Origin: a virus
DNA: 64,000 bases
Strand: one strand, 5' to 3'
Virus record (IMG/VR): IMGVR_UViG_3300005289_000052
Coordinates: 124,001-188,000 of that record
Below the pieces are notes generated by a model. The model searched no databases, was not told the origin of the DNA, and saw nothing but the letters and a program-made list of their open reading frames with translations. Shown in pieces: positions 5,064 through 60,022 of the stretch; within the stretch, counting starts at the first letter, position 1; the number at the start of each line of letters is the position of its first letter. The position numbers and the translations under genes are program-made.

Positions 5064-6408
5064 TCTTGTCTGGTTCCAGGAAGAGAGTCAGGGACGTGTT
5101 GCTCGCATACCGCCGAGTTGTCGACCCTGTACCTTTGAGGTGAATATAGTCTTGAGTCATCGTGACCACACCAAACAGCTCCTTGGTTTCGCCACCCGCT
5201 TCGTACAGATAACGCACTGGCATTCCCGGATAGATCAAACTACCACGAGAGTTCTCCCACTTGACCTGCACAGGCTGGCCTTTGCGAGAAGAGATCTTGG
5301 ACAACGCAGACATCAGGTTGCTTGAGATCTTGTCAGCCGCTTGCACGACGTGGTTTAACCCGTTCTTGGCTTCTTCAAACAGCACCTCAGTAACGTTCTT
5401 CCCTCGGGAGAGAGTTGTTACGTTATCAATGGTTTTACCGAAGCTGTCGAAGATGGCTTTAGCATCCGTGAGACGGAAGCCGTTACCTTCACCAACTTGA
5501 CGAGCGTTAGACGAATCCACCGAACGAGTCGAACCAGTGGCCAGAATGATCAACTGGTTAGCCGTCTGACGGAACGTACGCTCTACCTCTGGGAAGCGGT
5601 TCTCAGGTACGTTGATTACCGTGAGGCCGCTAGGGGTAGCTTCGAAGCGTTGCGTGTTAAAGAGAGGCCATACATACCAAGAGCCTTGGTGTAGATAAAA
5701 ACCGATCTCACTGTTGTAGATGCCGCCACATTTATCTTGAATGTAGCTAGGCAGGGCTACCAAAGGCGTACCGTGTGGAATGACCACGTGGGCACGCTTC
5801 TCAGTGTTATCGGCCTCGACCATATCAATGGCTTCAATCGACAACCCACGCTCCAGAGGCATCTTGTTGGATTCATCTGCGAGCATGGATTGTAGCACTT
5901 GCCAAGGAGTGGCTTGCTTGAACACCCCACCAACCGTACAACCACGCAACCATTCAGTTACGTTGTCAATCAATTGGAAGTTGACTTTGATCACGTCACC
6001 CAAGTCACCCATCTGCACCGAATCGAGCATTGGTGAAGAACCTTCTTTCGCATGGTCCCGCACGTCCATCAAGATCGCAGTATAGATGAGGGTTTCAACT
6101 TGAGCATTGGCTGAAACCGTGTCAGAGATCTCTCCGATGTATTGGCGTTGGATTACTGCCTTGAGGTTATTCCGTTGAGGGAACACCTTCTGGCTATACG
6201 TACCAGCACCGAACACCACCTCCATCACGATCTCATCAGCAAAGCTTTGAGTGAAGTCTCGAACGATGTCCACCGACATGAACTTGAGTGGGGCTATCGT
6301 GTTACCGTCTGGTAACTGAAACCACATCTCGTACAAGTAGTGAACATCTTTAGGTCCATCCTTGGTGATCTTCGAGACCTCATTCATTAAGGTGCTTTTC
6401 TCGATCAT
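5047..6408 (-). CDS. Probable baseplate hub-like structural protein
   Basis: Codes 453 residues, coupled by an ATGA overlap to the gene before it. The N-terminal 130 residues (YEMWFQL, then VDIVRDFTQSFADEIVMEV) resemble in pattern the first barrel of gp27/gpD-type baseplate hubs, and a late segment (GMPVRYLYE, then LFGVVTMT) resembles the second barrel. This is a fold-level impression, not a sequence match. It sits in a block of similarly sized structural genes, consistent with a tail tip or baseplate role. Confidence 0.6.
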   Translation of the reverse strand: MIEKSTLMNEVSKITKDGPKDVHYLYEMWFQLPDGNTIAPLKFMSVDIVRDFTQSFADEIVMEVVFGAGTYSQKVFPQRNNLKAVIQRQYIGEISDTVSANAQVETLIYTAILMDVRDHAKEGSSPMLDSVQMGDLGDVIKVNFQLIDNVTEWLRGCTVGGVFKQATPWQVLQSMLADESNKMPLERGLSIEAIDMVEADNTEKRAHVVIPHGTPLVALPSYIQDKCGGIYNSEIGFYLHQGSWYVWPLFNTQRFEATPSGLTVINVPENRFPEVERTFRQTANQLIILATGSTRSVDSSNARQVGEGNGFRLTDAKAIFDSFGKTIDNVTTLSRGKNVTEVLFEEAKNGLNHVVQAADKISSNLMSALSKISSRKGQPVQVKWENSRGSLIYPGMPVRYLYEAGGETKELFGVVTMTQDYIHLKGTGSTTRRYASNTSLTLFLEPDKNEQSS

Positions 6409-10984: not shown

Positions 10985-11018
10985 ACACTAGAGTAATATA
11001 GACTTGAGATTTATTTAT
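10985..11018 (-). promoter_or_regulatory. Early-type promoter (TATATTAC)
   Basis: Minus strand reads AATCTCAAGTCTATATTACT then CTAGTG. It is nearly identical over 45 bases to the element at 29943-29975, including the upstream AACTGGAA. TATATTAC is the core reported for phiKZ early promoters used by the virion RNA polymerase. Confidence 0.78.
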
Positions 11019-29263: not shown

Positions 29264-29893
29264 TTAGTAATGCGACTTCGGGTTGAAGTCGATACCGGGC
29301 AAACGGCTTACTGCTGTCATGAGTCGATGAACGTGGGCAACCTGGATGCTGATCCGGGAAGGACCACCACGAGGATAACCACGACCACGTGTAAGTTGCT
29401 GCGCTGCGTCATTGACTGCGACAACCAGTCCTTGAATGAACTTGCGTTCTTCTTCGCTGGGGTTGAAGCGCATTGGGCACAGACGAACGAATTCTTCTAC
29501 AGTCCAGCCCATGATGAAGATTTCGCCATTCTTGATGGTTACTTCTTCGGCAGGGTTTATGTGGAGATAGACACGATACAACAACGCCATTTCGTCATTC
29601 TTCTGACTTGGGCGTTCGGCAGGATGAAGTATCTCGCGAAGTTCTTCGATCGTGTGGGGCCGGATGGATTGTACCAGAGTCATCACAGAAGCTGGCGGTA
29701 GCGGTTCACGTCGCAACTGTTGATTGTGATCCAGAGCAAGCTTCACCTTTAACTTGCTAGGGGAGTAAGCGATTGCAAATGGTTTGTGTGCGTGAACCGA
29801 AACAATCGTGTAGTGTGTGGAATTCGAATACTGTAGACTGTTGTCGTAGTTGTAAATCAACGCGTGGATGAGGAGACGAGTCTCTTCGCGCAT
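29264..29893 (-). CDS. First gene of the small-protein early operon, unknown
   Basis: Codes 209 residues. GGAG six bases before ATG 29893 is chosen over a TTG four codons earlier. The protein has an N-terminal helical region, a middle with many Pro/Glu, and a basic GRGYPRGG loop near residue 175. No domain recognised. It follows the best early-type promoter in the window at about 50 bases, so it should be among the first proteins made. Confidence 0.74.
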   Translation of the reverse strand: MREETRLLIHALIYNYDNSLQYSNSTHYTIVSVHAHKPFAIAYSPSKLKVKLALDHNQQLRREPLPPASVMTLVQSIRPHTIEELREILHPAERPSQKNDEMALLYRVYLHINPAEEVTIKNGEIFIMGWTVEEFVRLCPMRFNPSEEERKFIQGLVVAVNDAAQQLTRGRGYPRGGPSRISIQVAHVHRLMTAVSRLPGIDFNPKSHY

Positions 29894-29942
29894 GGAGTTC
29901 TCCAAAGAACGAAAGGTTAGGGACCGATATAACTCAGTCTAT

Positions 29943-29977
29943 TCACCAGTGTAATATAGATTTGAGATTTTTTTGAT
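29943..29977 (-). promoter_or_regulatory. Early-type promoter (TATATTAC)
   Basis: Minus strand reads AATCTCAAATCTATATTACA then CTGGTG, with AACTGGAA about 15 bases upstream, closely matching the element at 10985-11018. It drives the operon from 29893 down to the terminator at 27250. Confidence 0.8.
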
Positions 29978-30000
29978 TCCAGTTTACACGTATGTAGTGA

Positions 30001-30134
30001 ATACAGGCAATGTCAACATTGCTCGCAAGGGGGTGATCCAGCCTTAGTGTGGTCTCCGAATCCTTGTATCGCTGGGAAGCGTAATAAAACGGATTCACGG
30101 CTGCCTGTATCCAGTCCGTCCTTCGGGACGGACT
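30001..30134 (+). ncRNA. Candidate structured RNA with anti-16S-rRNA 3'-end sequence
   Basis: Five mutually compatible stems are visible: P1 30001-30007/30104-30110, P2 30008-30012/30017-30021, P3 30039-30043/30099-30103, P4 30058-30063/30091-30096, P5 30070-30073/30078-30081 capped by GGGA (a GNRA loop). P1 stacks directly on both P2 and P3. A perfect 9-bp hairpin with a UUCG loop (30113-30134) follows. The junction between P2 and P3 is unpaired and carries AAGGGGGTGATCC; with the CAGCC of P3 this 17-base stretch (30027-30043) complements the 3' end of Pseudomonas 16S rRNA. The strand is chosen because both tetraloops are canonical only on plus. It could instead be a leader of the 30161 gene. 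Confidence 0.55.
30113..30134 (+). terminator. UUCG-capped hairpin, terminator-like but no T-tract
   Basis: AGTCCGTCC and GGACGGACT pair perfectly around TTCG, followed by CCTATTCC. It would end the RNA at 30001 or act as a stable 5'-leader hairpin 26 bases before the next start codon. Confidence 0.55.
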
Positions 30135-30160: not shown

Positions 30161-30667
30161 ATGGAAAACATCAAGACCGCCAGGACAGTGATCGATCTCG
30201 AGAAAACTGTGCAGAGGCTTATGGATTCAGTAGACCTTCTTCAAGACGCCGCAGAGATGTGTCGCGCTGAGGGTCCGATCTTACTGCGTGACTTCCGTAC
30301 CGTGGGTGTTAAAGTTCCACGTCAGTGCGGTAAATCCTTCGAAGCAGTACAACGCCTGATCCGCAATGAGAAGGCCATCATGATCTGTATCAATGATGCT
30401 CTTCGTAAATCGTTAGCCACCATCACCCACAGTCATCCGCATGGAGAGCCTCTCAAGCCTCACCAGATCGCGCGGATGTACACCGTGGACGAAGTCATCA
30501 AGGCAATCAAGTCAGTGCGTAACGGCCAACAGGACATCCTCTTGGCTGGCGCTAACGAGATCATCGTTGATGACTCTCACTGGTTCTTCCAACTGGTCCG
30601 CACTAACCAGTTCTACCAGTGGCTCTGGGATCGCCAAGGCGCAGACCAGAAAATCCTGCTCCTGTAG
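30161..30667 (+). CDS. Truncated P-loop NTPase-like protein
   Basis: Codes 168 residues from ATG 30161 (AGG upstream). VPRQCGKSF (52-60) is a Walker A of the RQxGKS type found in terminase and some helicase ATPases, and EIIVDDSHWFF (133-143) is a Walker B strand. It stops soon after, so only the first half of a RecA-like core is present. An in-frame GTG at 30047, placed ten bases after a very strong Shine-Dalgarno, would add 38 residues, but these translate the RNA stems and look non-coding. Role unknown: a nucleic-acid-dependent regulator or remnant of a larger ATPase. Confidence 0.72.
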   Translation: MENIKTARTVIDLEKTVQRLMDSVDLLQDAAEMCRAEGPILLRDFRTVGVKVPRQCGKSFEAVQRLIRNEKAIMICINDALRKSLATITHSHPHGEPLKPHQIARMYTVDEVIKAIKSVRNGQQDILLAGANEIIVDDSHWFFQLVRTNQFYQWLWDRQGADQKILLL

Positions 30668-31106: not shown

Positions 31107-31772
31107 TTACGACAAACGCATGTTGCGTTGGGCAATTTTCAGTAAGTCTTCGATCGGACGACTATTGTGAATGCGTTCCCGAAGTTTGAGTTTTTGTTCC
31201 CCAGACTCTTTATCTGGAGCCCAACCCACAGCACTATAGCGTTCGCTAGAATGTGGATCGAAATGCACAGCCATCCTGAAAGCATCCAACCAACCAATCT
31301 TGAATGTTTTCAGATAAGCTTCAAAGTAGGTAGCACCAGAACCGATAGCGATTGGGAGTTCTTTATCTGGCACTTCCCGAATATTGAGTATCTTCCTGCG
31401 AGTGATGATACTGAAACGATGTACCTTCCCAGTCTCAGTGACGATCAGCGCAGTGCCGCGAGGAATGTTGTTCTTCGTCAAGTTCAGCGCTTCAAACGAT
31501 TCAACAACGTGGTTCAGATCCGAACCCAAAGGCCAAATGGCCTCAAGGAAATTCCCTGTGTTGCCATCGCCAGCGCAACCCATGAACACGGCTACCTCAC
31601 CGCCAACCTTACGCTTCACTACGCCCTTATTGAGCATGATGATCTTTTGCGTGTTCTCTTTACTGCTGGTTCCAGTCGAGCCACACGAGTCACAGGAGAA
31701 TTCCATCGGATTGATGTGCGTCGATTTAAGGTCAGCGTACATCACTTTACCGTTTGTAGCAATCGTTGTCAC
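31107..31772 (-). CDS. HslV/proteasome-like Ntn hydrolase
   Basis: Codes 221 residues from a GTG with AAGGAAAGG upstream. After the initiator the chain begins TTIATNGKVMYADLKST, matching the start of HslV and proteasome beta subunits, with Thr2 as the likely catalytic N-terminal nucleophile and Asp14 at the usual acidic position. VAVFMGCAGDGNTG (60-73) matches the HslV GFAGGTAD strand-turn, and LPIAIGSGATYFEAYL (139-154) matches HslV's IAIGSG helix start. A small CDSCGSTG insertion (27-34) is unusual. It may form a phage peptidase ring or an inactive decoy; no HslU partner is seen here. Confidence 0.75.
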   Translation of the reverse strand: MTTIATNGKVMYADLKSTHINPMEFSCDSCGSTGTSSKENTQKIIMLNKGVVKRKVGGEVAVFMGCAGDGNTGNFLEAIWPLGSDLNHVVESFEALNLTKNNIPRGTALIVTETGKVHRFSIITRRKILNIREVPDKELPIAIGSGATYFEAYLKTFKIGWLDAFRMAVHFDPHSSERYSAVGWAPDKESGEQKLKLRERIHNSRPIEDLLKIAQRNMRLS

Positions 31773-33032: not shown

Positions 33033-33473
33033 TCAGAAAAGCAGTACGTCAACCGGCAATTCTGTTCCGCCCAGACACTCTTCGACCAAAGGCTTGAAGA
33101 CCTTGACGAAGTCGAGCTGACCGTAGCCACAACCCAGAGCAGGGATTCCCAGTTCAGTGATACCCAGCTCTTTATACCGCGCTACCAGATCCTTGAACCC
33201 AGCTTCGAGATATTCCTTCTTACTCGGTTTGCTCCAGTGATGCTTCGTGGGGAAGAGCAACACTTGGAACGGTCCCGCATTGTAGACCACCAGCTTCCCA
33301 ACGGTTAAGTCCCCCGAGCGCAAGGCAGCTTGATAGAACTCCAGCAACCCCGGAATCCTGATCTTGAACTGCAACGCCAAACCATTACCCAAAGTCCCCG
33401 CAGTGTTAACAGGACAGGCAATGGTCTGGAGTCCACTCGAGAACAAGTCACCCTCACCCATGAAACGGATCAT
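33033..33473 (-). CDS. Macrodomain ADP-ribose hydrolase, DarG-like
   Basis: Codes 146 residues, a stand-alone macrodomain. VNTAGTLGNGLALQFK (22-37) matches the ADP-ribose-binding signature of DarG/TARG1-type macrodomains (VNTxGxMGxGxALQFK), and LGIPALGCGYGQLDF is the second ligand loop. These enzymes remove ADP-ribose from nucleic acids or proteins. Host DarT toxins ADP-ribosylate phage DNA, so this could be a counter-defence enzyme; alternatively it recycles ADP-ribose. The gene is coupled (TAATG) to an unknown gene upstream. No DarT toxin is visible next to it. Confidence 0.88.
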   Translation of the reverse strand: MIRFMGEGDLFSSGLQTIACPVNTAGTLGNGLALQFKIRIPGLLEFYQAALRSGDLTVGKLVVYNAGPFQVLLFPTKHHWSKPSKKEYLEAGFKDLVARYKELGITELGIPALGCGYGQLDFVKVFKPLVEECLGGTELPVDVLLF

Positions 33474-57985: not shown

Positions 57986-60022
57986 TTAACGGTTCCAGGT
58001 CCCGGTGAAGGGGGAACCGAACATGCGGGAACCTTGTTGCTGACCGCCACCGTAGTTGAAGAAGCCACCAACGTTGTTGGCAACCAGGTGGTTGAGGTCG
58101 TAGCCGCCGCGCTGGGTCAGGACGTTGTTGTCGTCCAGGCCTTTCGCAGGACGCACGTTCAGACCGCAACGTACGATTGCTTCGGACAGCGCTTCCAGGA
58201 AGGAGTTGTCGAAGCTTACGCGACGAGCAAAGCCTTTGACGTGGATTTCCGATGCCAGGAGCTGACGCAGGATTTCTTTGCGCTGAGCCAGGCGGATTTC
58301 CAGAGGAACCTGGATGTTGCGGTGAGTTTCTTCCCACGCCTCGACCAGTTTCGGGTTGGTCTTGCCAGCCAGGTTGAGGATGGCCAGGTAGTCGATCTCA
58401 CGCAGGTCACGACGATTGCCTTCGCGATCGTAGTAGAAGCCCAGGTGGATACGGTCCTGATCGTCGTAGCACACTGGCTTGGACGCATCGAACAACTGCT
58501 GGAAGTGACCCATGGTCAGGTTGTTGGCTGCTTGCAGGATGGTCAGACGTGCGTTCTCGTCGCCGTTGGCGGCCGCGATGTAGGTCTGGTGAATCCAGGA
58601 CAGCTCGCCAACCTCGGCGATGTCGAGGGTGAAGATCAGCTTTTGACCGATCAGCATGTTGATGAGCTGGCGCATTTCGTTGTCACCGAAGTCGGCGGAA
58701 CGAGTTGGCAGTGCATCAGGCTTGGCTTGCGGATCGCCGGTCAGGTTGACTTCGTAACCGGTAGCACCCAGGTCTTTCAGGTCCACGTCGGTAGCCTTGC
58801 CCTTGTTGGCGCGCCAGGTACCGGTGAACAGGCCGTTGCGGTTCAGGCCGAAAGCAGTGGACAGGGCCAGGAGTTGCAGCTCCATGTTCACGGCGTCGGT
58901 CAGGGTGTCGACCGAGGTCAGCACCATACGCGGCTGGTACATCTGGGTAGCCATCATTTGCTGCTGGTTGCCGAACATGCCGAAGGCTTGCTGCTGAGGC
59001 TGGAAGCCTGCTTGAGCCGGTTGGTACATCAGGTCGACGTAGCCAGCGACGCGAGTCAGTTGGCGGGTCTGTTGCAGGCTGAACTGCGAGTCGGCTTGGG
59101 ACTGCGCGGACATGGTGACGATGATGTCTTCACGTACCGGCATGCCCACGATGTCTTCGCCGTGCTGACGAGTGAACTCGACGCGCGCGCTCAGTTGGTC
59201 GCCGGAGCCGACTTCACCCAGGGTGAACGGTTCTTCGTTGCCGCCGAGCTGGTTGTCCATGATGGTGTAGCAGGCCTGGGTGCTGTTGTGCAGCAGGCGG
59301 TTGAAGCGGTTCTCGGTGCTGACTTCAGCTTCGGCTGGAATCACAACGCCACCGGCATCGTGGATCTGAGCGTTGAAGCCGTAGCTGTTGATGACGAACT
59401 GCTCCAGAACTTGCCAGTACGACTTGTTCAGGTAGATGTCGCCAGGCACGATGTCGACTTCGACGGTGGTGCCGCCCAGGTTCACGCTGCTTGGGTCCAG
59501 TGGAGCGCCGCTCGATTCGACCAGCAGGCTGTAGACAGCGATGTGCTTCTGGCCCTGGTATTCTTCGTAGTAGCAGACCAGGATGCTGGAGAAAGTCACC
59601 TTGGACTGGTTGTTGTCCAGTACCAGGATGTTGAACTCTTTCTTCTGCTGTTCGGTCAGCACTTTGCCAGCGCGTTCTTTCAGACCCAGTTGAATGGTCT
59701 GAACGTCTTCACCGGACATGTTCCGTGGAACAGGGCGGCGGTGGTTGGCGTTGATGTCCAGGACCGAACGGCCACGGCTACCTACGCGGGAGTTGTTGTT
59801 GGATTGCTGGTTCATCTGAGCACCTGCGTTGAAAGGCTGTTGCGGTTGAGCATTGCCGCCAGTTGGCTGCTGTTGCTGCCCACCGGTTGGTTGTTGAGTT
59901 TGTTCTTGGGGCTGTTCAGCACCCGTTGGAGTCATACCCGCTTTCAGCATGGCATCTGCCATTGCGCTGTTCTGCGGCTGGTTCCCCTGGCTCTGGCCAG
60001 GTCCATTACGTTTGACGGACAT
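57986..60022 (-). CDS. chmA: Probable phage nuclear shell protein (chimallin, ChmA)
   Basis: Codes 678 residues. The first 95 residues are Gln/Gly/Asn/Pro-rich and disordered; the remainder is a large alpha/beta protein ending in a Gly/Gln/Phe-rich tail (GGFFNYGGGQQQGSRMF). Identification rests on context: it is the gene next to the gp55-like polymerase subunit, as the shell protein gp54 is in phiKZ; it has a strong early promoter and its own terminator; its codons are highly biased; and the size is near the 600-650 residues of known shell proteins. These build the protein nucleus that hides phage DNA from host defences. I cannot confirm it by sequence from memory. Confidence 0.68.
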   Translation of the reverse strand: MSVKRNGPGQSQGNQPQNSAMADAMLKAGMTPTGAEQPQEQTQQPTGGQQQQPTGGNAQPQQPFNAGAQMNQQSNNNSRVGSRGRSVLDINANHRRPVPRNMSGEDVQTIQLGLKERAGKVLTEQQKKEFNILVLDNNQSKVTFSSILVCYYEEYQGQKHIAVYSLLVESSGAPLDPSSVNLGGTTVEVDIVPGDIYLNKSYWQVLEQFVINSYGFNAQIHDAGGVVIPAEAEVSTENRFNRLLHNSTQACYTIMDNQLGGNEEPFTLGEVGSGDQLSARVEFTRQHGEDIVGMPVREDIIVTMSAQSQADSQFSLQQTRQLTRVAGYVDLMYQPAQAGFQPQQQAFGMFGNQQQMMATQMYQPRMVLTSVDTLTDAVNMELQLLALSTAFGLNRNGLFTGTWRANKGKATDVDLKDLGATGYEVNLTGDPQAKPDALPTRSADFGDNEMRQLINMLIGQKLIFTLDIAEVGELSWIHQTYIAAANGDENARLTILQAANNLTMGHFQQLFDASKPVCYDDQDRIHLGFYYDREGNRRDLREIDYLAILNLAGKTNPKLVEAWEETHRNIQVPLEIRLAQRKEILRQLLASEIHVKGFARRVSFDNSFLEALSEAIVRCGLNVRPAKGLDDNNVLTQRGGYDLNHLVANNVGGFFNYGGGQQQGSRMFGSPFTGTWNR

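Follow-up and report, generated by a model that had tools for sequence, protein, structure and literature searches.

A conserved structured RNA of nucleus-forming jumbo phages that may pair with the 3' end of host 16S ribosomal RNA

The DNA analysed here, which we call the window, is a stretch of 64,000 nucleotides comprising bases 124001-188000 within a 243,669-base virus record. It contains a chimallin gene at 57986-60022 (Pfam Chimallin_Phikzvirus, E=9e-61; PHROG 'nuclear shell protein', E=3e-116) and encodes several split RNA polymerase subunits, which together identify its source as a phiKZ-like, nucleus-forming jumbo phage. The element described below occupies positions 30001-30110 of the plus strand and is flanked by a divergent minus-strand gene (29264-29905) and by a plus-strand gene (30161-30667) that lies outside the element and belongs to PHROG 2586 (phrog_2586), of unknown function. 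Proteins encoded nearby on the minus strand match phrog_1040 (HslV-family peptidase; 31107-31772) and phrog_335 (phosphatase; 33033-33473), and a search of the whole window with the ARAGORN model found no tRNA or tmRNA.

A first-pass annotation had proposed five stems totalling 27 base pairs in these 110 bases, and all of the complementarities are present where it placed them. P1 joins ATACAGG to CCTGTAT (7 bp, with 8 possible; 30001-30008 with 30103-30110), and P2 joins CAATG to CATTG (5 bp; hairpin 30009-30020, with 30009-30012 opposite 30017-30020). P3 is formed by CAGCC and GGCTG (5 bp), P4 by GAATCC and GGATTC (6 bp; 30058-30063 with 30091-30096), and P5 by CGCT and AGCG (4 bp; hairpin 30070-30081, with 30070-30073 opposite 30078-30081), the last closed by the GNRA loop GGGA at 30074-30077. 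The folding energy of the 110-nt element alone is weak (z = -1.9, with 7 of 200 shuffles equally stable), and it reaches z = -2.8 when the predicted 5' end and the terminator hairpin are included. Since its energy sets the element only mildly apart from shuffled sequence, the case for a non-coding RNA rests on comparison with homologues.

A protein search with the product of the downstream gene led to a contig (L002) in which that protein is 48% identical and the 110 bases upstream are nearly identical; six viral contigs, L002's included, carry this close form. The downstream gene is missing at that location in L006-L008, so that the element stands alone there. Using a looser motif scan and BLAST with the PhiPA3 copy, we identified more distant homologues, both in uncultured phages (L027, L032, L036, L040, L049, L051, L053, L054, L069, L094, L104 and L109) and in the isolates phiKZ, PhiPA3, 201phi2-1, Viktualia, PA1C and DT01; Noxifer, Phabio, D6 and RVTF4 came to light in mismatch and covariance-model searches, and all of these isolates are Pseudomonas phages. 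The phiKZ copy sits between PHIKZ203, a predicted DEAD/DEAH helicase (PMC12571901), and PHIKZ204, and an SNF2/DEAD helicase gene adjoins the element in phiKZ, PhiPA3, PA1C, Noxifer and D6, suggesting that the locus is orthologous. Within the phiKZ and Noxifer groups the element's location is usually intergenic, and in the phage records examined it is either unannotated or overlapped by small hypothetical ORFs. With strict filters no member was found in EL, Goslar, SPN3US, RAY, CR5, AH06, LucasX, FLC9 or SNUABM_54, and the model search gave only a weak match in OBP (E=0.38); the strictness of the filters means that absence from these phages is not proven. Matches in EL (1707-1723) and OBP (230385) were rejected, as their DNA looks coding and the fold is missing. 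L094 carries a larger relative of 146 nt (2763-2908) that shares the core and P1 and differs in internal architecture, with uncertain assignment of P2 and P4. In Viktualia and 201phi2-1 (the pair L004, 2749-2830, and L005, 2746-2832) a tRNA-Leu gene precedes the homologue of the window's downstream gene, in the position held by the non-coding RNA in the window.

The conservation of the fold is illustrated by covariance models, by pair counts and by matches in genomes outside the model training. Model R1, built from six close sequences, matches the DT01-type group with E-values of 1e-6 to 1e-12 and Noxifer with 0.002-0.005; R2 comprises 22 sequences with the phiKZ-type group added, every one at E <= 0.05; and R3, from all 22 sequences, finds a single match per genome in D6 (E=2.5e-8) and RVTF4 (E=5e-8), neither of which was in the training set. 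An alignment of 13 sequences (A8) has standard pairs in 96.8% of its pair cells and changes on both sides at 16 of 22 pairs, compared with 78.8% pairing in shuffled controls and 30-49% when the registers are slid by 1-3 columns. In the 22-sequence alignment that includes the phiKZ-type group (A10), 92.2% of cells are paired, 19 of the 22 pairs show both-side changes, and no shuffle matches the covariation score. Both alignments had been fitted to the structure and are biased in its favour, but the slid-register control and stems written out by hand for each sequence agree with these results. Across the 22 homologues the compensatory changes that the first-pass annotation named as a check are seen in P1 (6 of 8 pairs, with 98% of cells paired), P2 (4 of 4), P4 (5 of 6) and P5 (4 of 4), and not in P3. 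The P5 loop is a GNRA sequence in nearly all members, with the variants GGGA, GCGA, GAGA and GTGA retained as the P5 stem changes; phiKZ, with CAGGA, is an exception. The five pairs of P3 can form in 20/22, 10/18, 8/22, 19/22 and 7/22 sequences respectively, and we reject it as a conserved helix. The contiguous stacking of P1 on both P2 and P3 is consequently only half supported: P2 is kept, whereas P3 is not conserved and would occupy the stretch complementary to 16S rRNA that is described below. What the comparison does show is a closed P1 stem around the P2 hairpin and a P4/P5 arm with its GNRA loop, and on this comparative evidence positions 30001-30110 of the plus strand almost certainly specify a structured non-coding RNA.

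The signals that might direct its expression lie on either side. The sequence TATATTAC (29951-29958, minus strand) is promoter-like for the divergent gene at 29264-29905, resembling the phiKZ early promoter consensus; the GTAATAT within this region is unchanged in seven close relatives, and the final base of GTAATATA differs only in L009 and L010. On the plus strand, TATG at 29991-29994 is a predicted late (nvRNAP) promoter with G 29994 as the inferred +1, phiKZ late promoters having the form T-3 A T G+1 (PMC4666361). It is unchanged in all seven close relatives, and in the DT01-type group and Noxifer TATG abuts the 5' end of P1. No TATG was found upstream of the phiKZ-group members, which have a AATGATATAG-like sequence in common there, nor was a sigma-70 site found among the expression signals sought for the element. 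At the other end, a 9-bp hairpin with a UUCG loop (30113-30134, plus strand) is the probable 3' end or terminator, its stem rewritten between close relatives with the UUCG kept. A T-rich tail often follows it (TTTTAT in L002 and L006); the window has only CCTATT, and termination there is inferred. A transcript from about 29994 to about 30140 is likely, as a prediction made without expression data. The first-pass annotation, the stems of which are largely upheld, had overlooked both this covarying hairpin and the most conserved part of the element.

That part is the unpaired stretch AAGGGGGUGAUCCAGCC between P2 and P4 (30027-30043, plus strand; core 30028-30039), in which 12-17 nt are complementary to the 3' end of 16S rRNA. 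The bacterial 16S 3' end, GGCUGGAUCACCUCCUU, is the reverse complement of AAGGGGGUGAUCCAGCC apart from one G.U pair. The complement covers the anti-Shine-Dalgarno CCUCC and GGAUCA as well as the 3' strand of helix 45, and in the window its CAGCC end could instead sit in P3. The 12-nt core AGGRGGUGAUCC is constant in 22 of 22 aligned members save for one position, G in 20 and A in 2, where variation is harmless to pairing because the position faces a U in 16S rRNA and both bases pair with U. The A form is found in Noxifer and Phabio and, outside the 22-sequence alignment, in D6 and RVTF4; Phabio keeps the core and not CAGCC. We regarded an RNA as a member of a new family if it had P1, P2, P4 and P5 with a GNRA loop and covariation support, and an unpaired AGGRGGUGAUCC between P2 and P4; both requirements are met, the second also by Noxifer, Phabio, D6 and RVTF4. 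The invariance of the core is in part a product of construction, since many members were first located through the motif; L002, which came from protein homology, and phiKZ, 201phi2-1, Noxifer, Phabio, D6 and RVTF4, which came from BLAST, mismatch or model searches, suffer less from this bias. All of the element sequences tested are predicted to form a duplex with the 16S tail at -36 to -49 kcal/mol, compared with shuffled means of -20 to -26 (z of -4 to -9 for the element), and the net cofold gain after the cost of unfolding is -13 to -31 in seven members. The intended 16S reference (L048) contains only the last 16S bases and yielded no Rfam score. The 16S 3' end is probably the target of the RNA, an inference from predicted duplex energies for which there are no binding data.

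Sequences resembling this stretch are not confined to the element. Chance 17-mers of this kind occur in coding DNA as KGVIQP codons, and copies of the element on bacterial chromosomes were rejected: of at least 120 genome_contigs matches to AAGGGGGTGATCCAGYC, the ones inspected have a coding look (ParB-like, or other KGVIQP codons). Numerous GGAGG matches among viral contigs, L013 and its relatives, likewise look like one repeated coding region in unrelated phages. The antisense form with GGAGG, AAGGAGGTGATCCAGCC(GCA), is a standard 16S 3'-end PCR primer that occurs in 277 papers, in keeping with the complementarity of the stretch to 16S rRNA; within the element's stretch GGGGG is commoner than GGAGG. 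Two AT-rich phages, on contigs of 142 kb and 62 kb (L103, about 5491-5506 on the minus strand, and L118, about 10989-11004), appear to encode a different non-coding RNA, in which a long closing stem surrounds GCACACGGATAGGGGGTGATCCAGTC and is followed by a strong terminator hairpin; R2 matches it at no better than E=0.34, and a convergent anti-16S RNA is possible. There may thus be a second kind of phage RNA that has the same stretch in another fold. The L103 phage has a second locus (L177, G001:C1:108522-108538, minus strand) with CACACGGATAGAGGGTGATCCAGTC after a long perfect hairpin. Small prophages or contigs of 5-27 kb (L065, L071, L075, L078, L088, L110, L120, L123, L127, L134 and L137) carry GGAAGGGGGTGATCCAGTCT in a conserved context, possibly as a very long Shine-Dalgarno sequence or as some other RNA. 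Finally, the related contigs L082, L108 and L116 have ATGGTTTTGGTCCTCTCCGAAAGGGGGTGATCCAGTC, with a short ORF ending inside the anti-16S-like stretch.

An RNA between a gene and its upstream neighbor could act in cis on the gene that follows, as a 5' leader or riboswitch, and indeed a same-strand gene begins shortly 3' of the element in the window, L002, L009 and L010. A terminator-like hairpin separates the two, however, and that gene (the phrog_2586 gene) is missing from that place in L006-L008, is replaced by others in PhiPA3, 201phi2-1 and phiKZ, and in PA1C gives way to a next gene on the opposite strand. A leader would be expected to have a constant downstream gene or function, and as neither is seen this reading is largely refuted and strikes us as very improbable, in keeping with the earlier claim that this is no ordinary 5' leader. 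Weaker still is the proposal that the GTG at 30047 starts a small ORF or extends the coding sequence of the downstream protein, which we regard as refuted even though in the window the frame of this GTG runs without a stop into the downstream ORF. The length of the element varies by 1-8 nt among homologues, shifting the frame, the frames interrupted by stops vary from member to member, the GTG frame of L002 is not in frame with the downstream gene, and the covariation is that of base pairs; conservation of the extension's amino acids, which the first-pass annotation had named as a refuting outcome for its RNA reading, is not seen. That annotation placed an RNA gene at this site, with a divergent promoter region on one side and a gene on the other, and it is borne out by the covariation and by the varying downstream genes. 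In the absence of expression data we infer that the element is transcribed independently, as a small RNA of about 110 nt plus its terminator hairpin.

The model that we favor, with somewhat better than even confidence and without expression or binding data, is that this phage RNA engages the 3' end of 16S rRNA and occupies 30S, as the finished subunit or in precursor form. By base-pairing with the 16S 3' end it would dock on 30S or on free or precursor 30S, occupying the anti-Shine-Dalgarno as a Shine-Dalgarno sequence without a start codon would, and a fraction of 30S subunits would be captured or marked, altering initiation during the nvRNAP-transcribed phase of infection. That 30S capture or control of initiation is the outcome we put at roughly an even chance; it is inferred, and an effect on translation is untested. 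Shine-Dalgarno sites are abundant in phage genes (68% in phiKZ against 9% in the control, and 62% in the window phage against 16%), so an occupied anti-Shine-Dalgarno should harm the phage too; an explanation of host-specific shut-off by Shine-Dalgarno-free phage mRNAs was accordingly rejected, plain host shut-off that spares the phage is unsupported, and partial or local capture of 30S is preferred. A rival reading makes the RNA a tether that places another phage factor at 30S, or a protector or decoy, shielding the 16S 3' end from a host defence nuclease or imitating it. In its favour, phage mRNAs depend on Shine-Dalgarno sites, so that a role of selective or local extent is more readily accepted than a global shut-off, and the GNRA arm, conserved and covarying, is one that antisense pairing does not need and may bind something else. 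No partner is known, and the proteins 135 and 216 of phiKZ, which have been reported in 30S fractions (PMC10914614), have no tested link to the RNA, and we regard this role as doubtful. Slightly less so, and still unlikely, is an action on 30S biogenesis, in which pairing with nascent or precursor 16S rRNA would block the formation of helix 45 and the KsgA, Era and YbeY steps at the 3' end and halt the assembly of new host ribosomes rather than initiation. The 17-nt complement does reach the 3' strand of helix 45 in most members (CAGCC with GGCUG), and in the window family, 201phi2-1 and L053 the pairing may run on toward the helix 45 loop. Such extension past 17 nt is suggestive in individual members only, being across members no better than shuffled (mean z -0.6), and the lack of CAGCC in Phabio also counts against this reading.

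The means by which phiKZ-like phages commandeer host translation are an active open question, the answers to which have so far rested on ribosome-binding phage proteins; if a conserved RNA carries a long stretch antisense to the anti-Shine-Dalgarno, a route through RNA would be added to these. On balance we think that nucleus-forming phages encode an RNA that pairs with the host 16S 3' end and controls, captures or marks the small subunit; if so, these phages use RNA directly on the host small ribosomal subunit. As the element is present in the widely kept phages phiKZ, PhiPA3 and 201phi2-1, the idea is testable at once with existing tools, and the RNA family also offers an annotation marker for nucleus-forming jumbo phages.

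Of the systems already described, the structured non-coding RNAs identified by Grad-seq in phiKZ itself (the PHIKZ298 3'UTR of about 100 nt, and the p40 5'UTR of about 180 nt, found partly in 30S fractions) come from the same phage family, but they are UTR-derived, lie at other loci and have no reported 16S complement, and the PHIKZ203/204 locus is not among the non-coding RNAs of that report (PMC8545117). A key-term search of jumbo-phage reviews from 2025 and 2026 and of studies on ribosome targeting and antisense oligomers, among open-licence papers without preprints, found no mention of the element, a scope that does not exclude a prior description elsewhere. By the family definition given above, and as judged from sequence comparison, it appears to be a new family, overlooked in the model phage phiKZ. 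No family of Rfam release 15 reaches its gathering cutoff in the whole window or in L057 (phiKZ), L061, L103, L118 or L154. The one weak resemblance, to the Caulobacter sRNA CC2171 (RF01867), scores 14.2 bits (E=0.43) where the cutoff is 75; the two align weakly over their full length and have in common mainly an anti-16S 3'-end stretch (AAAGGAGGUGAUCCAG in CC2171), along with a 3' hairpin, but CC2171 is bacterial rather than phage-encoded, the structure between differs, and there is no sign of homology beyond the motif. Ribosome-associated non-coding RNAs (rancRNAs) likewise would bind the ribosome and not mRNA, although none of them is known to us to be phage-encoded and deeply conserved with an explicit anti-16S 3'-end stretch. 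The extended Shine-Dalgarno elements of mRNAs use the same chemistry, a long pairing with the 16S 3' tail; the RNA described here differs from them in that most members have no start codon at a usable distance, in the preference for GGGGG over GGAGG, and in its apparent nature as an independent non-coding RNA.
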